Shown one piece after another: positions 9,336 to 46,935 of a stretch of DNA of 64,000 bases; positions within the stretch are counted from its first letter, which is position 1; each line of letters begins with the position of its first letter. Origin of the DNA: Alphaproteobacteria bacterium (lineage in GTDB: Bacteria; Pseudomonadota; Alphaproteobacteria; Rickettsiales; SXRF01); assembly GCA_025362975.1 (NCBI GenBank), contig JANYES010000005.1:1-64000 (forward strand). The letters are read 5' to 3'. Under the pieces are notes generated by a model. That model did not search any database. It had not been told where the DNA came from and was given only the letters and a program-made list of their open reading frames with translations. The position numbers and the translations under genes were made by a program.

Positions 9336-9860
9336 ATGCAAGAAGCGGTTTTCCCTAATAATGAAGCTGAACGCCTGTTTATCCTGCGTGCGCTCAACCT
9401 TTTGGATACACCGATAGAGGAACGATTCGACCGCATTACACGTATCGTCTGCAATGCGCTTAATGTTCCCATAGCGACCATTACGTTGATTGATGACACA
9501 CGGCAGTGGTTTAAATCGGGTCAGGGCATATGTGTCGCAGAAACTTCCCGTAAGGATTCCTTTTGCGCCCATGCTATTTTAGAAAACGAAATGATGATTG
9601 TGCCTGATGCCTCCAAAGATCCCCGCTTTCATGATAATCCCCTTGTAATATCGGAACCCAACATCCGATTTTATGCAGGCATTCCCATCACTGTCCGTAA
9701 TGCATTCAATATTGGTACGTTGTGTGCAATTGACACCAGGCCCAGAGAACTGACCGATGCACAGAGAAGCATTATGCATGATCTGGCTAAAATTGTAGAA
9801 TCGGAAATCTCGGCAATATCCCTTTCCGAAACGCATTACAAAATGCAAAAGAAAGGTTGA
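9336..9860 (+). CDS. GAF-domain protein
   Basis: FDRITRIVCNALNVPIATITLIDDTRQWFKSGQGI...CAHAILENEMMIVPDASKDPRFHDNPLV. Confidence 0.8.
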   Translation: MQEAVFPNNEAERLFILRALNLLDTPIEERFDRITRIVCNALNVPIATITLIDDTRQWFKSGQGICVAETSRKDSFCAHAILENEMMIVPDASKDPRFHDNPLVISEPNIRFYAGIPITVRNAFNIGTLCAIDTRPRELTDAQRSIMHDLAKIVESEISAISLSETHYKMQKKG

Positions 9861-11815: not shown

Positions 11816-11843
11816 AATATTATTGTTATTAAACAATAATATT
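11816..11843. repeat. Perfect 12-bp palindrome, ATTA loop
   Basis: AATATTATTGTT-ATTA-AACAATAATATT, directly abutting the tRNA-Ile2 3' end. Confidence 0.85.
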
Positions 11844-11891
11844 GGTGGGGGGGGGGTGAGGGACTTGAACCCACGACCAAGGCGTTATGAG
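11844..11891 (-). pseudogene. tRNA-Ile2(CAT) 3' half left by element B (attL side)
   Basis: Reverse complement CTCATAACGCCTTGGTCGTGGGTTCAAGTCCCTCACCCCCCCCCCACCA. Complements the 5' half at 21627-21666. C run is 10 instead of 6. Confidence 0.85.
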
Positions 11892-12009
11892 TGACATAGT
11901 CTTGGTTCCCAACCATTCTCAATCGACCCCATAAAACCACTAATATCCTTGATATAAAAAGATATTTTTCCCATTTCCCCCTATTCTCCGCTAGCTTTTT
12001 CCATAGAGC

Positions 12010-12031
12010 ACTCTTATTATACTCTTATTAT
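12010..12031 (+). repeat. Element B terminal direct repeat, left (candidate integrase arm sites)
   Basis: ACTCTTATTATACTCTTATTAT; right copy ACTCTTATTATGCTCTTATTAT at 21511-21532 (1 mismatch). Each is a tandem CTCTTATTAT pair. Confidence 0.8.
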
Positions 12032-12057
12032 TTTCAGTTTTTTTTCATAATAGCAAT

Positions 12058-13284
12058 ATGTCTAAAATTAATAAGAGTAATACTCGGAAAGACAAGCTGA
12101 CTGTACGTTTTGTTGAATCACTACCCTTCGTCGCAAAGGGGCAAAAGGTATATACGGACTGCGAATTGATAGGATTTGGTATCATTGTCGGCAAAAATTC
12201 CAAGACTTATTTCGCCCAGCGTTTCGTTAATGGGAAAACTGTCAGGGTCACAATAGGCAGGCACGGCATATTTACCAGCGAGCAAGCCCGCACTGATGCT
12301 AGGGAATTACTCGTCCGTATGGCACGTGGCGAAAACCCTAATCAAACGAAACGTGAAATAATATTGGAAGAACGAGAAATCGCTTCAAATGAGATAACAC
12401 TGGCACAAGCGTGCGATGCGTATCAAGAAGGCAAGAAACACCTAAGCAAAGTCAGTCTTTATAGGTTACGCAGATGCAGGGAGCAGTGGTTTGATGATTG
12501 GATGCGGCTTCCTATTAATCAAATCACTAAGGAAATGGTGCTTAAACGCCATGCAAAAATCGGCAAGAAGCATGGCGGCACAACTGCTAATAACGCTTTG
12601 AAATTGTTACGAGCAATCTATAACTTCGCTCTTATTATCAATAGCACCCTCCCCGCCAATCCTGTCAGAACCTTATCTCAAGCCAAAAGTTGGTTTAAAC
12701 AGGAAGTAAGGCAAAGCGTTATAAGGCCTACACAGCTGAAATCTTGGTATGATGCGGTAATGCTGGTGGAAAGCAGTATTATACGGGATTACCTTTGCCT
12801 ACTGTTATTTACAGGCATGAGAAAAACCGAAGGATTATCGCTACGTTGGGAAAATGTTGATTTTAAGGAAAAGGTCATAACGGTGCCGGATACCAAAAAT
12901 GGCAAGCCCCTTATCATTCCTATGAGCGATTATGTCCATGATTTGCTCAGTTCTAGAAAAAAGCGCACAAGCAATAGCAAATGGGTTTTCCCCGGCACTG
13001 GCAAAACAGGTCATCTTGTTGAACCCAAGAAGGCAATGGCAAACATAGCAAAGAAATCTGGCGTTCCATTTATGACACATGACCTACGCCGCACCTTTAT
13101 CACTATAGCTGAGAGTCTTGATATATCATCATATGCGCTCAAACGACTCGTCAATCACAGCCAAGGCCGCGATGTGACAACTGGCTATATAGTCATGAAC
13201 GTTGACCGCCTGAGAGAGCCAATGCAAAAAGTAGCCACTTTTATTCAGCAGAAAATTAATGCCGATAATAAAGAATCAAGGTAA
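12058..13284 (+). CDS. Tyrosine-type integrase (DUF4102/P4-like)
   Basis: N-terminal arm-binding-type domain; catalytic region LLFTGMRKTEGLSLRWENVDF ... THDLRRTFITIAES ... LVNHSQGRDVTTGYI. Confidence 0.93.
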   Translation: MSKINKSNTRKDKLTVRFVESLPFVAKGQKVYTDCELIGFGIIVGKNSKTYFAQRFVNGKTVRVTIGRHGIFTSEQARTDARELLVRMARGENPNQTKREIILEEREIASNEITLAQACDAYQEGKKHLSKVSLYRLRRCREQWFDDWMRLPINQITKEMVLKRHAKIGKKHGGTTANNALKLLRAIYNFALIINSTLPANPVRTLSQAKSWFKQEVRQSVIRPTQLKSWYDAVMLVESSIIRDYLCLLLFTGMRKTEGLSLRWENVDFKEKVITVPDTKNGKPLIIPMSDYVHDLLSSRKKRTSNSKWVFPGTGKTGHLVEPKKAMANIAKKSGVPFMTHDLRRTFITIAESLDISSYALKRLVNHSQGRDVTTGYIVMNVDRLREPMQKVATFIQQKINADNKESR

Positions 13285-13314
13285 TAAAGAATTATCTAAC
13301 AATTAGGATTTACT

Positions 13315-14187
13315 ATGAAAATTGTTGCGCTTGATGGGAAATTTAAGACAGACGATATGATTCATTTTGATGAACTGGTCAATAAGGCCGGGGAATCACT
13401 ATACGAGGCAGCTTGGAAAGATAATCCTTTTACAGATGTTGAGCCATTCCATCGCGCCGTACCGAAGAAAATGAGAAAGAGTGCTGCGGTAACTGAGGTT
13501 AAAATATCCACTTTTATAATGCAAGATAACGAGCCGAAATTATTTAGTCGGATAATACCATTCGCACATGCATATAAAGATAAAAAAGACGATAGCACCT
13601 TGGTTTTAGAAGCTCAGCAAATGTTGATGAATATAAGGCAAAAATTATGGTCGATAATTAATAAAACTCAATTGCCTTATAGTGTCCTACTAAATAATGG
13701 CAACATTATTGAAAGCAGCGATATTAACGCCGGAATGTGGTTAATGAAACCCAACACTATATTCTGCACTGGTTGCTTTCCAATCAAAAGAGGTGCTGTA
13801 CGACTTTGGGGCAGATTGTTATTCAAAAAAGAACAAGCATTGGAATGTATAAAAAATCTCAATAAGGACTCTGCCTCTATACAGCCTGTACCTAATACGC
13901 AATCTGGTGTTGAGGAAAATGAAGATGACAGGGAAGATGATGAAATAGATTCACGAGAAAGAAATTCTCTTCTCAAAATAATACTTATCATGAGCATAAA
14001 AGAACACCGGAAACAAATGATAGAGGGAAATTATCATAGTATTGGCAATAAGATAAAAGGCTGGGCGGCTGATTATGGCATAGAAATAGGCCATAAAAAT
14101 GTTGCTGATAAAATTGAGAAAGCAACACAACTTCCTTCATGGAAAACATACTTAGGATATTTGAAGGAAGATAAAAAAGTCCAATAG
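13315..14187 (+). CDS. Hypothetical protein (element B)
   Basis: 290-aa ORF just downstream of the integrase. Confidence 0.65.
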   Translation: MKIVALDGKFKTDDMIHFDELVNKAGESLYEAAWKDNPFTDVEPFHRAVPKKMRKSAAVTEVKISTFIMQDNEPKLFSRIIPFAHAYKDKKDDSTLVLEAQQMLMNIRQKLWSIINKTQLPYSVLLNNGNIIESSDINAGMWLMKPNTIFCTGCFPIKRGAVRLWGRLLFKKEQALECIKNLNKDSASIQPVPNTQSGVEENEDDREDDEIDSRERNSLLKIILIMSIKEHRKQMIEGNYHSIGNKIKGWAADYGIEIGHKNVADKIEKATQLPSWKTYLGYLKEDKKVQ

Positions 14188-14287
14188 CAAATTTTCTGTC
14201 CAATAGGAGTTTTTCTAAGGTTATTGAACTTCTTTCCCTTTGAATAACAATACATTTCGCTCTGTTGATTAACTAACGGAGCAATGT

Positions 14288-14623
14288 ATGAATGTTGAAA
14301 AATTAAACTCAACGGATACTGACAATAAGCCAGTATCTACTCAGATGGAGGAACATCTTCAGCTGGTACAGCAATTACAGAGTGCTGACCCTCACCTTAC
14401 CCTTTTGACTGGCAAAGAACTGGCCATTTATTGGAAAGTCAGCAAAAAGAAGATTGAGGCTGACCGTGTAAGCGGTGCAGGCATTCCTTTTATCAGGCTT
14501 TCCTCCGGTGCAATTCGATACCGTTTACAAGCTGTCTTGCAGCACATGGCGGATAATCAATGCACCAACACGTGCAATCAATCTCCAAGACCGGAAAAGA
14601 CCAAGTGCCAAAATGCGAATTAA
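14288..14623 (+). CDS. Small helix-turn-helix/excisionase-like protein
   Basis: LTGKELAIYWKVSKKKIEADRVSGAGIPFIRLSSGAIRYRLQAV. Confidence 0.6.
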   Translation: MNVEKLNSTDTDNKPVSTQMEEHLQLVQQLQSADPHLTLLTGKELAIYWKVSKKKIEADRVSGAGIPFIRLSSGAIRYRLQAVLQHMADNQCTNTCNQSPRPEKTKCQNAN

Positions 14624-14686
14624 CTCGCAGTGGATGGCTATTATCAAAATTTTAGAACTGGAAATTTATTACTAAAGGTAGGGTCT

Positions 14687-15673
14687 ATGACTAAGCGTTT
14701 TAAAACCAAGCAAAGTAAAAATATTAATATTTCTGATAAAAAAAGCGAAAAGCTGATTAAGCATAGGTGCGGCAAAATTAAATTTAAGCGCATTGATAGC
14801 GCAATAGAAATGTCAATGGGTACTGCCGAAATTCTCGCACGGAAGCAGGCTTGCATCTGTTATGCAGAGTTTTGCAAAGATTTGGAGGGTTTTGAATGTG
14901 ACGAATTTGATTTAGTTGTCGGCGTGACCTTCAATAAAATCACTGAAAAGCAAATCGAAAAGCACCGCCCCGATAGAGCGGAAAGAATCGACCTTAGTGT
15001 CATGACGCCATATATGCGTCTATTTCCTATAAATAAAAAAATGTTTTCTACGAGAGTGCTGCCAGAAGATATTGCTCAGCAGCATTTGAACCGGCGTGTA
15101 AATTATGGCTATTCATATATAGCCGCTAAAAAAGAAAAAAACTGGAGCGAGAAAGAATATGAAAAGCACGTCATGAATCACGGCTATACTGCATTAGCCA
15201 AGCGCGGCAAGACAATTGTGTTCGATAGTTGTGGGGATAATGTGAGTCATAACGCTGGCACAGAATTAAATAATGACCCCGACATGGACGAATTATTTGA
15301 TGGTAAAAAGCAAAGTGGCACAAAAGCAGCTGTGGCTAATGCAGAACAATCCTCAGGGTTAGCAATTAACTATTCAGAAGAAGAAAGGCTATCTGCCTTC
15401 TATGAATGGCTTCCTCGACTCCCGCAATTATGTACTGCGAAATTTGAAAATAAAAATTTTTGGAAGCAGGAAACTAAAAACAAGCAGCGCAAGCAACACC
15501 CACCAGTGCGCCTTGCATTTATTATCCCGCAAAGACTCCCCAATCATGTAGGGATAAACTACGTTGATACTGGCTTAACCGAGGAGCTAAAGAAACTCAT
15601 GATGCAAATTGGGCACCAAGAATTAATAAAATCCGTAGTCGATAAGCCCAAGAAAAAGAAGCGCAAGAGATAG
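14687..15673 (+). CDS. Hypothetical protein (element B)
   Basis: Long ORF; start moved to ATG 14687 (MTKRFKTKQSKN...) preceded by purine-rich aaaggtaggg. Confidence 0.65.
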   Translation: MTKRFKTKQSKNINISDKKSEKLIKHRCGKIKFKRIDSAIEMSMGTAEILARKQACICYAEFCKDLEGFECDEFDLVVGVTFNKITEKQIEKHRPDRAERIDLSVMTPYMRLFPINKKMFSTRVLPEDIAQQHLNRRVNYGYSYIAAKKEKNWSEKEYEKHVMNHGYTALAKRGKTIVFDSCGDNVSHNAGTELNNDPDMDELFDGKKQSGTKAAVANAEQSSGLAINYSEEERLSAFYEWLPRLPQLCTAKFENKNFWKQETKNKQRKQHPPVRLAFIIPQRLPNHVGINYVDTGLTEELKKLMMQIGHQELIKSVVDKPKKKKRKR

Positions 15674-15768
15674 TTTCTGGTCTTTTTTAAAATAGAATTA
15701 AATAAAAATTACTGCATCGGAGATGTGTTTTATGAATCCACCTCCGATGTTTTTAGATAGGAATACTT

Positions 15769-17817
15769 ATGTCAAAGAAAAGTGATATGCATAAACAACG
15801 CCAAGCAATTAAGGCAATCACAGAAGGAATGACTGCAATTCCAGCTGGTGCAGGCACTGGCAAGACTTCCCTTATTATAGAGGGGATTTCAGCCGTTTTA
15901 GCGTCAAGCAGGAAAGGAATTACGACGTCGAGTAAAATACTCGCTGTCACCTTTGGTAAGAAAGCCGCCAAAGAGATTAAACAGAGGCTGAAAGACGCTA
16001 TAGGTGATAAAGCTAATAATGTTATCGCTAGCACCCTCCACTCCCACGCAGCAAGCATTGTACGCAATAACGCGAAAGTATTGGGTTTTAGCAAACAGTT
16101 TTCAATTATTGGCGATGACGCCGTTATTCGCGCACTGAAAAGAATTTGCGCCTCTCAAAATCTCAGTCTAACGGAAAAACAATTAGATGAAGAATATGAT
16201 GCTATCGAATTGTTTAAGGCTAAAGGATTATTCCCCAACCAGATTGCTCCCGATTCAGAGTACCGCCTAAAGCAATTATATAAAGAACTTCAAGAAACGC
16301 TTATGTCAGCGAATTGTCTGACCTATAGCGACCTTATTTTATATGCCTGCAAGGCATATGAAGAACAGTATGAGCCTGATGGCCAGTGGGAGCAGATATT
16401 TGTAGATGAAACACAGGACATCAATCCGGCGCAATACGCCTTCATTCAATATTTAGCTGGTAAGAAAGCGAACATTTGCATGGTCGGTGATGATGACCAG
16501 TGTATCTACGGCTGGCGGGGAGCAGACCCCAAGCTGATGCAGCGTTTTACAAAGGATTATTCAGCTAAGATATGCTCACTGGAACAGAACTTCCGTTCTA
16601 CCGGATGTATTTTGAAAGCTGCCAATAGCGTCATCACTAATAACTCAGATAGGATACAAAAAGAACTTTTTACCAAGAGAGATAACGGACAGCCAATTAG
16701 AGTTCAACGACTGTCTGGTCTATATGATGAAGCATGTTTCATTGCGAAATATATTAAAAAAAGGCTCAAAGAATTTCAAGGTTCCAAGAAAAAATCGTAG
16801 AAGAAGATTGGTGTATTAGCAAGGCTCGATTCCCACCTGACAGAAATTGCGAAAATACTAGAGCAAAACAATATTCCCTATCAATATGGCAATAATGCTC
16901 TTTACAAAAAAAAGTGCATACAGACTGCCATTGATTATATGCAACTGTTACATAATCCGAATAATTGGCTGGCGTTTCAAAATGTCATGGCAAACCCACG
17001 GCGCGGCCTCAATGAGGCTACTCTCAATAAAATCCATGATTATGCCAATGAAAATAAGCTGAGTTTTTGGCAAGCGGCGACTCAATTAACGGAAGCAAGC
17101 AATTTGAAGAAATGCCGTAAATTTATTGATAATATTGAGAATTGGAAAAAACGATGCAAAGGACAGACCGCTAGTTTTGCGCTTAATTATATACTTGTTA
17201 ATTCGGGTTACAAAAAGTCCCTTAATGACACTGAAAAGGCGGATATAAAGCAACTATTATCAAAAGCAGATGATTTCGATACTATTAGCGACTTTTTAGA
17301 TGCGATTGCTTATGACGCTAACGAGCCAAATATTTCTAATGAAACCACAGTGTATCTAATGACGATTCATGCGGCAAAAGGGCTGGAATTTGACACTGTG
17401 TTTCTCCCTGCCTGGGAGATGGGGCAGTTCCCTCACCCAGCTGGTGATATTGCAGAAGAACGAAGATTAGCCTATGTCGCCATCACAAGAGCAAAAAGAA
17501 GGCTTTTCATTACTTCTATCATAAAGCCGGAGCGCAGAACTGCTGACAAAGGAAAGCAAGTAGAAAAGTCAATTTTTATCAATGAAATTGATAAAGACTT
17601 CCGTTTCCGTAAACGCAGCAAAAAAGCATCATTTTCTCTGCTTGATAATAGGTCTGATATAACTGACAGAAAGAAAATAATGGTGGGCGATACGGTGAGT
17701 CATAATGTCGATAATGGCTATGGAACCATTATGAAAGTGCAAAATGATAAGATAATTGTGGATTTCAACGTAATTGGGAAAAAAACCGTACTGAAAAGCG
17801 AAATTACCAAGGCATAA
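15769..17817 (+). pseudogene. UvrD/PcrA-like superfamily 1 helicase with an in-frame TAG at 16798-16800
   Basis: Walker A AGAGTGKTS, DETQD, MVGDDDQCIYGWRGAD and LEQNFRST before the stop; TIHAAKGLEFDTVFLP and RRLAYVAITRAKRRLF after it, in the same frame. Confidence 0.85.
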
Positions 17818-18003
17818 TGAGTAAATTATGAGCCTAAAAATTATAACGCTCTATATTGTTGTTGTGAATGTTTTATGCATCTAAAACAAAGCATTAAATA
17901 GCAAATAAATATAAATAAGTAGCTAAAAACTTCCAATATCTATGTTTACTAACTAAATATTATAAAGGTCACATAGAATCACATATAAATATCATTATTC
18001 AGC

Positions 18004-18909
18004 ATGACGAACATAAATCTCAGCAACTATCATAGATTAGTAAAACTATACAAAGAACGTAAGTTCAGAGTTAAAAGTGGAACAGGGAAAATAAAGACAA
18101 CTGGATTAGCATTAGCTGAGAAGCAGAAAGATAAGAATGATAAAAAGCTGCGGAACGCTATTGTGAAAAACATCAAGAATCCTGTAAAGCTACTGCAATT
18201 AATCTCTGAAAATACATGTGCGGATTTGAATTACTTCAATCCTCATAGGGTTATTCCATGTAATTTAGCTATTTTAAAGGCTATGGAAGCTCATAAAATT
18301 CGCCTAAAAGATGCCTATATGTTTACTATTATTGAGGGAAAGCATGAAACTAGTAACCTTGTTTTTGACGCTAAAAGCGCAGCATTTAATTTAGAAGTAA
18401 TAAAGCAGGATTTTAAAGATAAGCTGGATGGCATGAACTTCATTGCTATGGTGGAGTTCGCCTACTTTATTGAGCAAAAGAAGCATGGCAAAATAATTCA
18501 AAAAGCAAGACATACAGATGGTGGGGAACTCATAAGTCCTCATCTGCAAGGAATTCTTTGGTCAAACGAACTCACAAAGAAAAAGAAAATACAGTTAAAT
18601 GAAGCATTTTCTGGCGGTAGGAATGAGGCTGATGGATTTTATGCAGAGAAAATGCACAACATAATAGGCGCAGTCGGGTACATGACAAAATTGCCGACAA
18701 CTGGTTATAAACTACGGGATAAGAGGGAAACGTACAAGCATACCGGAACTTACCTGCAGCAGCCAAGAATGTTCTGCCTGTTTAACCGGCTCAGGCATTA
18801 TGATTTTGATGATATGCTGGTGTCTGGTGGCGAAGGGAATGCTGTTAAAGATAGCATATTACAATATCTGCGAAATAATAAAAACGCGTGGCCTAATTTG
18901 GTTGACTAG
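18004..18909 (+). CDS. Hypothetical protein (element B)
   Basis: 301-aa ORF, no family recognised. Confidence 0.6.
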   Translation: MTNINLSNYHRLVKLYKERKFRVKSGTGKIKTTGLALAEKQKDKNDKKLRNAIVKNIKNPVKLLQLISENTCADLNYFNPHRVIPCNLAILKAMEAHKIRLKDAYMFTIIEGKHETSNLVFDAKSAAFNLEVIKQDFKDKLDGMNFIAMVEFAYFIEQKKHGKIIQKARHTDGGELISPHLQGILWSNELTKKKKIQLNEAFSGGRNEADGFYAEKMHNIIGAVGYMTKLPTTGYKLRDKRETYKHTGTYLQQPRMFCLFNRLRHYDFDDMLVSGGEGNAVKDSILQYLRNNKNAWPNLVD

Positions 18910-18966
18910 TGATAGAAGTAACTATTCCAGAATAGTTACCGATGCGATTTAAGGGGAGATGAGCTT

Positions 18967-19173
18967 ATGTCTAACGTATGGAAAGCAAAGGGAACAAGAA
19001 ATTGTATTCAGCAATTCATGAAGCAAAATCTTGATGTTCTTGGTGAAGGAGCCGCCAGCTACGAAGTGAACTATAATTCTGGCGGGAACGGAATAGTGTG
19101 TGTGAAGTTTGATTCAAACGAAGCCAGTAATTTGGCTCGTCTTGTGATTCCTGAATTATTAAAGCCATTTTAA
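18967..19173 (+). CDS. Small hypothetical protein
   Basis: 68-aa ORF preceded by aaggggagatgag. Confidence 0.45.
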   Translation: MSNVWKAKGTRNCIQQFMKQNLDVLGEGAASYEVNYNSGGNGIVCVKFDSNEASNLARLVIPELLKPF

Positions 19174-19324
19174 ATAAAAACAATGCCACATAAAGATTGC
19201 TAAAGGTGATATTATTCAACACTAAGTATTATGGCTGAACTTGAAGCCAATAATTAGTATTATCGACACTCTGTATTGATACAGGAATTTTGCGTATTTA
19301 TGGCCAGTCGCACATACTAACCAG

Positions 19325-19786
19325 ATGAATTTAGAATTCAAAAAACGCATTGAAAAAACAAAAGGACTATTCGAGCAACTTCACAGTAGTCCTGTTTTGA
19401 CCTTACTGCCAAAGTCTTTGCCAGCAGTTCCAGCAATCTATGTATTTCTTGAAAACGGGAAGCCAGTGCATGTGGGGCGGACTCGCAATTTAAAGAAACG
19501 TTCAAGAGGGCATATTGCAAAGAGTCATTACTCTGCATCCTTTGCATTTAAACGCGCTAGAATAGCCACAGGGAATGAAAAGGCATCGTATAAGGTGGAA
19601 GGGTCTCGAAATGCTCTTGTGGCAGCGGATAGCCCGTTTCTGACAGAATTTACACGTCAGATTGAATTGGTGAAACTGATGCAGGTAAAGTTCCTGCATG
19701 TGGAAGACCCAATAGACCAATATTTGCTAGAACTGTATGCAGCTATGGAATACGGCACATCTATGTCAGAATTTGACACTCATTAA
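19325..19786 (+). CDS. GIY-YIG nuclease-like protein
   Basis: VPAIYVFLENGKPVHVGRTRNLKKRSRGHIAK resembles the GIY-YIG core. Confidence 0.65.
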   Translation: MNLEFKKRIEKTKGLFEQLHSSPVLTLLPKSLPAVPAIYVFLENGKPVHVGRTRNLKKRSRGHIAKSHYSASFAFKRARIATGNEKASYKVEGSRNALVAADSPFLTEFTRQIELVKLMQVKFLHVEDPIDQYLLELYAAMEYGTSMSEFDTH

Positions 19787-19926
19787 AATTTCATACCAAT
19801 ATAGTGTTGAGTCAGCATAGACATTCACATTTGAAGTCTTCAGCCCATTAATAAATAAGGATAATGATGGCAATGACGTCAGAAAATCCCCCTTCCATTT
19901 CTTTAAACCTCTGATATAATAGTTAC

Positions 19927-20157
19927 ATGGCATTACTTGATAAAATCCAAGAATTTGAAACACGCCCGGCAGCTTTTAATAGCGCCGAACAAAGCAGCCG
20001 TACTTCCATGTTTCGCCATTTATCTGCAATCAACAAATTTGAAGGTATTACCCCAACTGCTGTTGATGAGCGCCTGTTCCAATTACTAGCCGCTGGCAAA
20101 GTAACTAAGCAAGAATACCTTGAACTTTGCTTATTGGATGCCCACGGTACAGCGTAG
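19927..20157 (+). CDS. Putative Fic-associated antitoxin
   Basis: 76-aa ORF whose TAG overlaps the GTG start of the Fic gene by one base. Confidence 0.55.
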   Translation: MALLDKIQEFETRPAAFNSAEQSSRTSMFRHLSAINKFEGITPTAVDERLFQLLAAGKVTKQEYLELCLLDAHGTA

Positions 20158-20762
20158 TGATAGATTCTTTTTGGAATACTGGCACTGACCCCTATCAGTA
20201 TGCCACCTCGACTGTACTTAAAAATATACCTGATATTCGCAATGCCGAGGCTCTGGAAGTGTTTGAGCAACGCGCCACTGCATTACGTCTAGATGAGATG
20301 ATTGTTGCTATTGCCGATGCTCCTGCGACTCTCGCTACATGGCAAATGATTCACCGGATTCTTTTTCAGGATGTATATAGCTGGGCTGGCCAGATTCGCA
20401 TGGTACAGCTTGCTAAAGGCGATACGCTCTTTGCCATGCCCGAGCATATTGAGGCAGAAGCAAAACGTATTTTTGATGCGTTCGGGCAGGAAGACCTGAC
20501 TACATTGGAACGTAAGCAACTTATTCCCAAACTTTCTTATTATTTCGGGGAATTAAATGTATTGCACCCTTTCCGCGAAGGAAATGGCCGAACACAGAAG
20601 CTGCTGTTTGATGAAATAGCTCGCCGCTGCGGATATAGGATAGACTGGTCTGCAATGGCTGTTGATGCATTACTGCAAGCTGTTATCGCTGCTTTTAATA
20701 AGCAGGATTATACGAGGCTTGAGCAAGTATTTGATGCGGCACTGCAAAAGCACACGCCATAA
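20157..20762 (+). CDS. Fic-domain protein
   Basis: ELNVLHPFREGNGRTQKLLFDEIARRCGY; GTG start at 20157 gives (V/M)IDSFWNTGTDPYQYATSTVLKN. Confidence 0.88.
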   Translation: MIDSFWNTGTDPYQYATSTVLKNIPDIRNAEALEVFEQRATALRLDEMIVAIADAPATLATWQMIHRILFQDVYSWAGQIRMVQLAKGDTLFAMPEHIEAEAKRIFDAFGQEDLTTLERKQLIPKLSYYFGELNVLHPFREGNGRTQKLLFDEIARRCGYRIDWSAMAVDALLQAVIAAFNKQDYTRLEQVFDAALQKHTP

Positions 20763-20974
20763 TGAATTATAGAAGGCTCTTGGAACTCTATTGGGAAATG
20801 GATGCATTCTGGAAAAAGATGCATGGCTTATATCTTGATGCAATTATAGGCTTTTCACTAGTACATGATACCGTGCAGCAGAATCAGCAACGCATTAGGG
20901 AAATTCTGGGTGATGTAGATGTATATTCAGAAGAGTTTCAAGATACCACAATATTTGGTAGTGGGTCAATTTGA
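20762..20974 (+). CDS. Small hypothetical protein
   Basis: 70-aa ORF whose start overlaps the Fic stop codon. Confidence 0.4.
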   Translation: MNYRRLLELYWEMDAFWKKMHGLYLDAIIGFSLVHDTVQQNQQRIREILGDVDVYSEEFQDTTIFGSGSI

Positions 20975-21014
20975 AAAATGATGTAGTGTTCGTTCACATC
21001 CCGTCACAAAACAA

Positions 21015-21299
21015 ATGAGGAATCTCTATATGAATAAAGCAGCGCAGTTGTCGAAGGAACTTGAACAGCTTAATATAGCTGAAGGGGTGGACTTAATACT
21101 ACAGTCAACTAAAGATGCGCTTTGGTTTGATACAGTCGAAGATGTTACGACCATTATGCACAAAGACGGCTCGGTCAACTTCATCGACAATTGCGGGCGT
21201 GGTATTGTCGCTTGCGAGGTTATTTCAGCCGCAAATATCCTCAAAGTATTACAGCATTACAGACCCTTTAAAGAAGTCTTTAAAGACAATATACAATGA
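21015..21299 (+). CDS. Small hypothetical protein
   Basis: 94-aa ORF; start may be 21030. Confidence 0.45.
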   Translation: MRNLYMNKAAQLSKELEQLNIAEGVDLILQSTKDALWFDTVEDVTTIMHKDGSVNFIDNCGRGIVACEVISAANILKVLQHYRPFKEVFKDNIQ

Positions 21300-21367
21300 A
21301 ACAAAAAAAACAGCGACTTCAAACTGACCCACTACCAGAATTTCTAAATGCTATATTACGATGGTAA

Positions 21368-21443
21368 TGGTGGGGGGTGAGGGACTTGAACCCACGACTA
21401 ATCCGTTATGAGCGGACTGCTCTAACCACTGAGCTAACCCCCC
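21368..21443 (-). tRNA. tRNA-Ile2(CAT), complete, element-borne replacement
   Basis: GGGGGGTTAGCTCAGTGGTTAGAGCAGTCCGCTCATAACGGATTAGTCGTGGGTTCAAGTCCCTCACCCCCCACCA; resembles E. coli ileX-type tRNA-Ile2; CCA encoded. Confidence 0.88.
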
Positions 21444-21510
21444 ATTGCGTAAAACGAGCGAATGGAGTTATAAAACATTTCAAACTTGCTTCTATATAAT
21501 TCTTTGCATG

Positions 21511-21532
21511 ACTCTTATTATGCTCTTATTAT
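21511..21532 (+). repeat. Element B terminal direct repeat, right
   Basis: ACTCTTATTATGCTCTTATTAT, 1 mismatch to 12010-12031. Confidence 0.8.
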
Positions 21533-21626
21533 AAGAATTATGCCAAAAATTTTATCATCTAAAAATGCAAATCAACAAATTGTAAAATAACTATAATATT
21601 AAAAAAATTCCTTCAAAAGAGCATGT

Positions 21627-21666
21627 CGTTATGAGCGCCCTGCTCTAACCACTGAGCTAACCCCCC
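21627..21666 (-). pseudogene. tRNA-Ile2(CAT) 5' half left by element B (attR side)
   Basis: Reverse complement GGGGGGTTAGCTCAGTGGTTAGAGCAGGGCGCTCATAACG, then unrelated sequence. Confidence 0.88.
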
Positions 21667-21876: not shown

Positions 21877-22167
21877 ATGAAGCAAGGCATTCACCCGGAT
21901 TACCACCACATCACCATCGTGATGTCGGATGGCATGAAATACGACACCCGCTCAACCTGGGGCAAAGAAGGCGACGTCCTTCTGCTCGACGTTGACCCGA
22001 AAACCCACCCGGCTTGGGTCGGCGGCATCAACCTGCGTAAAACCGGCCAGATGGAAAAGTTCCAGAACAAGTTCGCTGCGTTCGCATCGGCCACCGGCAA
22101 AAAAGACGCGGCTGCAGACACTGCAACCCCGAAAGAAGACAAGCCGAAAGAAGACAAGAAAGACTGA
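21877..22167 (+). CDS. rpmE: Ribosomal protein bL31
   Basis: [33 protein letters not shown]; lysine/aspartate-rich C-terminal tail. Confidence 0.93.
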
Positions 22168-38410: not shown

Positions 38411-39658
38411 TTACCTCACATTCTGCCGTATAGGGATTATTTTCCAGTTTTCCCCGGCTTCGCAGGTCAAAATGAAATCCGTCCATAATTCCAAGGCAGC
38501 GCGGCGTTCAGTCATGTAGTCGTGCTGGTCATAAACTGCAACCAGTCCGCCAAGTGAGTGATTTAGGCAGCGTTCGGCAATGATGATGTTGACACCCAGC
38601 GCCGCAAGATGGCTCCGCGCTGTCGAGCGCAAATCGTGCGGAGTGAAACGGCGGCACTTATCGCCGAGGGCGTCACACAGTTTATTCAGCATAGAATTAA
38701 GCGAATGCTGGTTTAAATGAATATCCGCGCCATATTTCTCTATCCGGCGCGCTTGCCGTGCCGGTAGCACATAGCGCGAACCGTAAGCAAAGGGCTGCAA
38801 CGCCGTGAACCAGCCAATCACCGCTGGCGTCAAAGGCACGGTGAACCCTTTGCCAGTTTTGGAGTTCTGGTCAGGAATAAACCACTCAGCCGTTTTAAAA
38901 TCTATATGCGCCCATTCCGCTTTTATCAGTTCGCCGATACGGACGCACGTTGCCAGCAGGATTTTGACCGACAACGCATTTTGCTCGCCGATAGTGTGTA
39001 CGGCTGGCAATATCTCCCGCAATTCCTCGGCGGTGAGTTTGAGTCGCTGGCGTTTCGGCTCCGCCTTGCCGATAATCGCCGACACGGAAATCACCGCGCA
39101 GGGATTAGCAATAACAACATGCCGCGCCACGGCGTGCTTAAAGATTTCTGAAATGGCGGTAAACACCAGTTCCGCTACGCTTTTTGAACGTCCACCCACG
39201 CTCTCGATTATCGCCACTACGTCGGCAGTGGATACATCGCGGGCCGCCAGTCCGCTCAGTTTAGGCAGGATGATACGCTCAATATGCGAGCGACGTTGAT
39301 ATATGGTGTTAGCGGCGAGGTGCGGGAATTTCTTTTCCATATAATCGGCAGCGAGTTTCCGAAAACTCATAGCGGCGGCGGTTTCCACCTTTGTCCGGCG
39401 TTTTTCACGCGCCACATCAAAGCCGCCCTGAATCTTAGCGCGGGCGTCCGTTGCCGCCTTTCGGGCGTTGGCAAGGGATATATCCTGATACCTGCCTATC
39501 GTGAGTTCACGGGGCCTACCGCCGAAACGATAACGCAGCACCCAGCTTGCCAATCCCTTCGCCGATAACGTGAAGGTCAGCCCGCCCCCGTCGGATTTTG
39601 CGACCGGTTTTCCTATTTTTATCCATGTACGAATCTGTATGTCGGTCAGCTTGTTCAT
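38411..39658 (-). CDS. Tyrosine-type integrase (DUF4102/P4-like)
   Basis: GGGLTFTLSAKGLASWVLRYRFGGRPRELTIGRYQDISLANARK; THD-type HDLRSTARSHLAALGV ... CLNHSLGG. Confidence 0.93.
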   Translation of the reverse strand: MNKLTDIQIRTWIKIGKPVAKSDGGGLTFTLSAKGLASWVLRYRFGGRPRELTIGRYQDISLANARKAATDARAKIQGGFDVAREKRRTKVETAAAMSFRKLAADYMEKKFPHLAANTIYQRRSHIERIILPKLSGLAARDVSTADVVAIIESVGGRSKSVAELVFTAISEIFKHAVARHVVIANPCAVISVSAIIGKAEPKRQRLKLTAEELREILPAVHTIGEQNALSVKILLATCVRIGELIKAEWAHIDFKTAEWFIPDQNSKTGKGFTVPLTPAVIGWFTALQPFAYGSRYVLPARQARRIEKYGADIHLNQHSLNSMLNKLCDALGDKCRRFTPHDLRSTARSHLAALGVNIIIAERCLNHSLGGLVAVYDQHDYMTERRAALELWTDFILTCEAGENWKIIPIRQNVR

Positions 39659-45463: not shown

Positions 45464-45539
45464 AGGGGTGTAGCTCAGCTGGTAGAGCGGCGGTCTCCAA
45501 AACCGTAGGCCGCAGGTTCGAATCCTGTCGCCCCTGCCA
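45464..45539 (+). tRNA. tRNA-Trp(CCA)
   Basis: AGGGGTGTAGCTCAGCTGGTAGAGCGGCGGTCTCCAAAACCGTAGGCCGCAGGTTCGAATCCTGTCGCCCCTGCCA; cloverleaf folds, loop CTCCAAA. Confidence 0.97.
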
Positions 45540-45654
45540 TTTCTAAGTCCGGCAATGTCCGGTACAATCCATAAAGTATAGAGATTAGCACGTTTATAGC
45601 TGTTTATATGGCCAGTAATGTCCATGACGTATTATTGACATCCGGGGGTAATTA

Positions 45655-45672
45655 GGGGTAAATGTGGGGGTA
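45655..45672 (+). repeat. Element D terminal direct repeat, left (candidate arm sites)
   Basis: GGGGTAAATGTGGGGGTA; right copy GGGGTAAATCTGGGGGTA at 55008-55025. Confidence 0.8.
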
Positions 45673-45702
45673 GCTTTAAAAACCATTAGCGGAGTTACCC
45701 CC

Positions 45703-46935
45703 ATGCCCCTAACCGATGTGACAGTGAGGACTGCAAAGCCTAAGAGCAAGCCGTATAAGCTATCGGATGGTGGCGGCCTATTCTTGTTGGTACAACCCTC
45801 CGGCGGCAAATGGTGGCGCTATAAATACCGCTTTACAGGTAAAGAAAAACTGTTGGCATTGGGTGGTTACCCAGATGTTAGCCTTGCCGATGTGCGGGAA
45901 CGTCATTCGCAGGCACGCAAGGCATTAGCGGCAGGCAATGATCCTGGTGAGGTAAAAAAAGAGGCAAAGCGCCTCGCGGTTATCAAAGCTGATAACAATT
46001 TTGAGGCAATTGCCCGCGAATGGCATGAACAACATCGCCATGAATGGGTGGCTCATTATGCCGGTGACGTTCTTAACCGCCTTGAAACGCACATGTTTAC
46101 CAAGATAGGCAATAGGCCGATAGCTGATATTAACGCGATAGAAATCCTTTCCGTATTACGTATTATCGAAAAATCAGGCGCATTAGATATGGCGCAACGC
46201 ATGATGCAAACATGCGGACAGGTTTTTCGGTACGCCATCACTACCGGACGCGCTGACCGTAATCCAGTCGCAGACTTGCGTGGAGCGCTGAAAACGCCGG
46301 TACGCAAGCATCATGCTCACCTTAAGGCGGATGAGTTGCCAGAATTTCTGCAAAAATTAGCAATCTACGATGGCAATTTGCAAACCAAGTTGGCGTTAAA
46401 ATTATTAATGTTAACATTTGTACGCACCACAGAGTTACGTGGCGCGGAATGGGGAGAGATTAATTTTGATGCCGCTGAGTGGCGTATTCCCGCCTCGCGC
46501 ATGAAGATGAAAGACCCGCACATTGTTCCACTATCAACGCAAGCAATTGCAGCGCTGCGCGATTTGCAAAAAATTTCTGGTAATCGGCAGCATGTATTTC
46601 CCAACGAAAAAAGACCGATTACCTTTATTAGCGAAAATACCATGCTTTATGCCATATATCGCATGGGTTATCATTCCCGCACCACTGGGCATGGCTTTCG
46701 CGCCACCGCCAGCACTTTACTCAATGAGCAAGGGTTTGCTCCAGACGTAATCGAGCGCCAGCTTGCTCATTGTGAACGTAATAAGGTGCGCGCCGCATAT
46801 AATCATGCTCAACATCTACCGGAGCGTGGGAAAATGATGCAATGGTGGGCGGATTATTTGGATGTTCAAATAAGTAGGAAACCTGAGCAAAACGCGATGC
46901 TTCAAGGAAAGAGTTATGGCAAAAAAAGAGATTAG
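45703..46935 (+). CDS. Tyrosine-type integrase (DUF4102/P4-like)
   Basis: MPLTDVTVRTAKPKSKPYKLSDGGGLFLLVQPSGGKWWRYKYRFTGKEKLLALGGYPDVSLADVRERH; GHGFRATASTLLNEQG. Confidence 0.96.
   Translation: MPLTDVTVRTAKPKSKPYKLSDGGGLFLLVQPSGGKWWRYKYRFTGKEKLLALGGYPDVSLADVRERHSQARKALAAGNDPGEVKKEAKRLAVIKADNNFEAIAREWHEQHRHEWVAHYAGDVLNRLETHMFTKIGNRPIADINAIEILSVLRIIEKSGALDMAQRMMQTCGQVFRYAITTGRADRNPVADLRGALKTPVRKHHAHLKADELPEFLQKLAIYDGNLQTKLALKLLMLTFVRTTELRGAEWGEINFDAAEWRIPASRMKMKDPHIVPLSTQAIAALRDLQKISGNRQHVFPNEKRPITFISENTMLYAIYRMGYHSRTTGHGFRATASTLLNEQGFAPDVIERQLAHCERNKVRAAYNHAQHLPERGKMMQWWADYLDVQISRKPEQNAMLQGKSYGKKRD

Follow-up and report, generated by a model that had tools for sequence, protein, structure and literature searches.

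We analyzed a 64,000-nucleotide stretch of an alphaproteobacterial (Rickettsiales) contig, hereafter the window, in which a 9,744-bp tyrosine-integrase element (inserted DNA plus one copy of the recombination core) lies within the host gene for tRNA-Ile2(CAU) and carries a complete tRNA-Ile2 gene of its own. This arrangement is very probably explained by tRNA-dependent integration, in which an element disrupts a host tRNA gene without rebuilding it and supplies a full replacement. An earlier note on this DNA had described the arrangement as out of the ordinary; the arrangement is real, but it is less unusual than presented, since a 2024 study had already set out its principle under the name tRNA-dependent lysogeny (Guerrero-Bustamante & Hatfull, 2024; PMC10865867).

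The host gene is split at the anticodon loop, with its 3′ half at the integrase-side junction and its 5′ half at the distal junction (coordinates in Table 1). The halves have in common only the 9-bp core (CGTTATGAG/CTCATAACG), which spans the 7-nt anticodon loop and 2 further nt. The earlier note had placed the split and both halves correctly, except that its 3′ half began one base late, since the TGG that corresponds to the terminal CCA starts at 11843. Combined, the two halves match at 100%, save for four extra C's, a 76-nt gene that is intact in two relatives (G005 and G022), and thus they do not represent a chance resemblance. ARAGORN detected no tRNA at either junction, and the Rfam tRNA model gave a match (69.3 bits) solely at 21371-21443 and nothing at the junctions. 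Comparison of the attachment sites of the element (attP) and the chromosome (attB) showed no vestige of a tRNA past the 9-bp core. As claimed previously, neither junction restores the gene and the element supplies an entire one. In its acceptor strand, the host 3′ half has a run of 10 G's at 11847-11856, compared with 6 in the relatives, which may reflect post-insertion decay or a sequencing error. The four extra C's suggest that even a clean excision might fail to restore a good gene; if they are real, excision would be costly and the host would depend on the element.

The complete tRNA-Ile2 lies 184 bp inward of the distal end of the element, where the earlier note had found it, and is structurally intact. 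With five differences (four in the anticodon stem and one in the variable loop), it is 93% similar to the host gene; no difference from the relatives' intact gene affects the D arm, T arm, acceptor stem, discriminator, or CCA. The anticodon-stem changes form two fully compensated pairs, 28-42 and 29-41 (GTCCG/CGGAT form), and since these double changes keep the stem paired, they indicate selection for a working tRNA. The lysidine enzyme TilS is encoded at G000:C4:211394-211936, so that a CAU tRNA-Ile2 can be matured. The AUA codon accounts for 15 of the 147 isoleucine codons in seven flanking host genes (10%) and for 65 of 187 in the element genes (35%), and therefore tRNA-Ile2 is needed. The replacement is presumably transcribed, TilS-modified, functional, and essential.

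The disrupted host gene is otherwise single-copy. A whole-genome search of the host assembly (3.26 Mb, 28 contigs, 98% complete) revealed no tRNA-Ile2 besides the two halves and the full gene, with tRNA-Val genes as the next-best matches, and an independent pattern search of the same genome likewise found no further copy. Within the window, the full gene is the sole CAU tRNA. The view of the internal gene as a replacement thus withstood the count of tRNA-Ile2 genes, and it also agrees with the empty site. In four relatives from the host family (G005, G006, G007, and G013), an intact tRNA-Ile2 adjoins rpmE, exactly where the window has the 5′ half, and its anticodon stem is of the host type (GGGCG/CGCCT), not of the element type. 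In G311, tRNA-Ile2 adjoins dnaK, which also comes after rpmE in the window. The intact genes beside rpmE and dnaK therefore establish the insertion target and its orientation. A half gene at a contig end in G311 was rejected as a split gene, being the normal gene next to dnaK interrupted by an assembly break. The three closest relatives (G001, G002, and G003) proved uninformative as empty-site genomes, as they have no recognizable tRNA-Ile2, whole or half, and one of them is rated 100% complete; the gene may lie in a gap of the assemblies or have been lost to an element that was not binned. One of these, G003, has rpmE with no tRNA beside it. In G005, 25 nt of the tRNA-Ile2 3′ end recur farther downstream of the intact gene (G005:C10:692-716), likely as the footprint of a different island that uses the 3′ end of this gene.

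In the mechanism that we propose, the tyrosine integrase would recombine the 9-bp attP core with the anticodon loop of the single-copy host tRNA-Ile2(CAU) gene, and with an attP devoid of the tRNA 3′ half the gene would be rebuilt at neither junction. The complete tRNA-Ile2, separately transcribed from a position just inside the distal arm site, would take over AUA decoding, and the host would thereafter depend on retention of the element. All expected catalytic residues of the integrase are present (R255, K280, H341, R344, H367, and Y377), and the enzyme is predicted to be active and the element to be currently mobile. Several observations weigh against this proposal. A promoter-like match upstream of the replacement tRNA (10 of 12 positions) does not exceed what chance would give (2 found versus 1.6 expected). 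The in-frame stop in a helicase gene of the element, together with the altered host 3′ half, may mean that the element is no longer mobile. Finally, a second tRNA-Ile2 could possibly lie inside a gap of the 28-contig draft.

Related integrases, with 67%, 51%, ~44%, and lower identity to the window integrase, belong to classical anticodon-loop islands, whose attP carries a tRNA 3′ half so that the host gene is rebuilt. Displaced 3′ halves were found for tRNA-Ile(GAT) beside the G013 integrase (67% identity), for tRNA-fMet beside that of G007 (51%), for tRNA-Lys beside integrases of Nitrosomonas aestuarii (L093) and G000:C4, and for tRNA-Met beside that of G002. Wherever the other end was available (G013:C73, G007:C6, L093, L098 from Nitrosomonadaceae, and G002:C18), it contained the rebuilt tRNA. 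The G013 ends are on separate contigs; they were paired because both have the same 45-nt tRNA 3′ half and share the arm repeat. These elements have the topology of the window element: the integrase gene adjoins the displaced 3′ half, and the opposite end holds the chromosomal 5′ half. Since the relatives rebuild their tRNA within the same topology, the classical state is likely ancestral, and the window element is probably a derivative that has lost the 3′ half from its attP and gained a full gene. It shares with the islands of G013, G007, and L093 the integrase group, the anticodon-loop target, and the position of the integrase gene, and with that of G013 also the arm-repeat motif. It likewise has a displaced 3′ half but, unlike these islands, no regenerated gene; no full replacement was found in the islands. 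In L098, the displaced half at 9829 has the anticodon TTT and the rebuilt tRNA-Lys at 17121-17196 has CTT, a mismatch between attP and attB at position 34.

Classical integration of the window element itself, with the tRNA rebuilt at one junction and the internal tRNA as incidental cargo, would conform to the mode used by every resolved integrase relative listed above. However, it is refuted by the junction sequences, with a tRNA at neither junction and a stretch of just 9 bp common to attP and attB, and no other tRNA-Ile2 was found; we consider this alternative scarcely credible. A local duplication, or two insertions that are stacked or in tandem, with the full gene as the original host copy, could account for the distance of only 223 bp between the full tRNA and the 5′ half. 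Moreover, G023 from another family has the same GTCCG/CGGAT allele at its native locus with no integrase nearby, which shows merely that the allele occurs naturally. Such a history is nevertheless very unlikely, given that the host-family allele and the rpmE neighbor belong to the halves rather than to the full gene, and that the element's own arm repeat lies between the half and the full gene.

An assembly or binning artefact, either a chimeric join or a mixture of strains with and without the element, might be suspected in a 28-contig draft in which the 10-G run could be a homopolymer error. It is made highly improbable by the exact coincidence of both junctions with the same core, by an integrase-beside-3′-half topology identical to that of the relatives, and by the independent occurrence of the same layout in another genome (G335, see below). 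The host gene could also still work as a trans-split tRNA, its halves transcribed apart and joined as RNA, and a weak inverted repeat around the attP core (ATGTC/GACAT, 5 of 6 pairs) could then pair in trans. Pairing of at least 5 of 6 occurs by chance at 0.7% of element positions, however, and is a normal property of integrase core sites; the 3′ half has a damaged acceptor strand; and no splicing endonuclease for split tRNAs is known from bacteria, all of which renders trans-splicing exceedingly unlikely.

A second case supporting tRNA-dependent integration came from 344 genomes of the order. In G335, a member of another family, the 5′ half of tRNA-Ile2 (C25:12129-12168) diverges right past the same core and is followed by an arm-type repeat at ~12267 and a complete tRNA-Ile2 at 12344-12419. 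The layout of 5′ half, ~100 bp, arm site, ~60 bp, and full tRNA gives a distance of 215 bp from the start of the half to the start of the full gene, compared with 223 bp in the window. The sequence is chromosomal again ~750 bp further on, where it encodes a protein that by its sequence resembles monothiol glutaredoxins; a search of this genome, which is 77% complete, yielded no 3′ half. This locus (G335:C25:12129-12419) is probably the remnant of an element that underwent deletion while its tRNA was retained, although the incompleteness of the genome makes this less certain. In G335, the element tRNA and the host 5′ half are identical along 40 nt. The strategy can therefore do without stem changes, and the idea that the altered stem of the window tRNA is a necessary shield from the integrase was rejected. 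No further pairs of a half and a full tRNA-Ile2 were detected in viral contigs, and a pattern search across a sample of 385 genomes from the class recovered only the window.

A more far-reaching reading holds that a non-phage element has become the sole and irreplaceable supplier of tRNA-Ile2, that its own integrase no longer recognizes the stem with compensated changes, and that decay of the host 3′ half would make excision lethal. The system would then constitute an RNA-based addiction and a one-way ratchet replacing core tRNA genes, with G335 as the end state, where the element is gone and its tRNA is kept as the only copy. We regard this scenario as doubtful.

The mechanism itself is already known. 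The experimentally tested actinobacteriophages Fionnbharth, LeBron, Gaia, OneUp, and Mollymur have integrases that disrupt a host tRNA through a core of ~8-17 bp without reconstruction, the phage tRNA complementing the loss; in Mollymur, the target is tRNA-Ile2-CAT and the core is 9 bp long, and the Lactobacillus johnsonii prophage Lj965 is cited as a likely earlier case (PMC10865867). The window element likewise has an arm-domain tyrosine integrase, an attB overlapping a tRNA gene, a short core (9 bp), no reconstruction, a full-length tRNA gene matching the host isotype, and a single-copy host tRNA. Close integrases also differ in strategy in both systems, at 78% identity among those phages (PMC10865867) and 67% here. 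In contrast to those temperate phages, the window element is a 9.7-kb alphaproteobacterial element known from sequence, in which no phage structural genes were detected; its tRNA adjoins attP and the host half is damaged. In another alphaproteobacterial host, Sinorhizobium meliloti, prophages similar to Mesorhizobium phage vB_MloP_Lo5R7ANS are integrated in tRNA-Leu(UAG) (PMC11476347; PMC12429752), and a prophage copy replaces the inactivated tRNA (PMC11476347). These elements are phage-related, and their tRNA, which is close to those of other genera, reaches no more than 80.6% similarity to the host gene, as opposed to 93% here. No report of such a replacement in a non-phage element was found in the open-access literature.

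What is new is therefore a carrier in which phage structural genes were not detected, together with the alphaproteobacterial host family; the damaged host half and the layout of half, arm site, and full gene conserved in two families are further differences from published cases. These results suggest that replacement rather than repair of an essential tRNA extends beyond phages, and that the strategy derives from classical anticodon-loop integration, which is retained by close relatives (67% identical integrase). The G335 remnant points to a possible route by which core tRNA genes are swapped with mobile-element copies over time, an exchange that normally goes unnoticed owing to the conserved appearance of tRNAs.

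The element has a G+C content of 39%, compared with 49-52% in its flanks. A gene similar to its AlpA/excisionase-like gene also follows the integrase gene in the G013 element. A stop codon at 16798-16800 divides the UvrD-like helicase into two open reading frames (ORFs), the VbhA-like/Fic pair is a possible second way of retaining the element in the host, and several further proteins have no assigned family. The attP is flanked on both sides by a 22-bp repeat, at distances from the core of ~120 bp (integrase side) and ~95 bp (distal side). Its motif AATAA-N4-ATAATAA is common to the related elements of G013 and G335, as expected for arm-type integrase sites, which these repeats are predicted to be. 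Scans of the 10 main ORFs with PHROGs, Pfam, and NCBIfam revealed no capsid, portal, terminase, or tail genes, so the element does not qualify as a temperate phage. No DNA relative of the element body was found in phages, only fragments of the fic and helicase genes in plasmids, and three element proteins have no relatives in viral contigs. Possibly, the element is a satellite dependent on a helper phage. Structures predicted without alignments for two of the element proteins that have no assigned family had confidence scores (predicted local distance difference test) of 31-35 and were not used.

Table 1. Features of the tRNA-Ile2 element and its junctions (window positions).
Feature	Position	Strand	Evidence or remark
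3′ half of split host tRNA-Ile2, integrase-side junction	11843-11891	-	acceptor strand 10 C's versus 6 in relatives
Core copy 1, 9 bp	11883-11891	-	CTCATAACG in tRNA sense
Arm-type repeat (predicted), integrase side, ACTCTTATTATACTCTTATTAT	12010-12031	.	repeat search
Tyrosine integrase, 408 aa	12058-13284	+	Arm-DNA-bind_3 and Phage_integrase
AlpA/excisionase-like protein, 111 aa, candidate directionality factor	14288-14623	+	phrog_66, E=4e-4
UvrD-like helicase frame, one in-frame stop	15769-17817	+	ORFs 15769-16800 and 16939-17817
GIY-YIG-like endonuclease protein	19325-19786	+	weak match to UvrC/exonuclease families
VbhA-like antitoxin (19927-20157) and Fic toxin (20127-20762)	19927-20762	+	
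Complete element-borne tRNA-Ile2(CAU)	21368-21443	-	Rfam tRNA match
Arm-type repeat (predicted), distal side, ACTCTTATTATGCTCTTATTAT	21511-21532	.	weak promoter-like match 21546-21517 overlaps on - strand
5′ half of split host tRNA-Ile2, distal junction	21627-21666	-	sequence match
Core copy 2, 9 bp	21627-21635	-	
rpmE (ribosomal protein L31)	21877-22167	+	chromosomal neighbor marking empty site

Elsewhere in the window, a further integrase is encoded at 38411-39658 (- strand). A tRNA-Trp gene at 45464-45539 is followed directly by a tyrosine integrase gene at 45703-46935, and this region (45464-46935) is probably another island.

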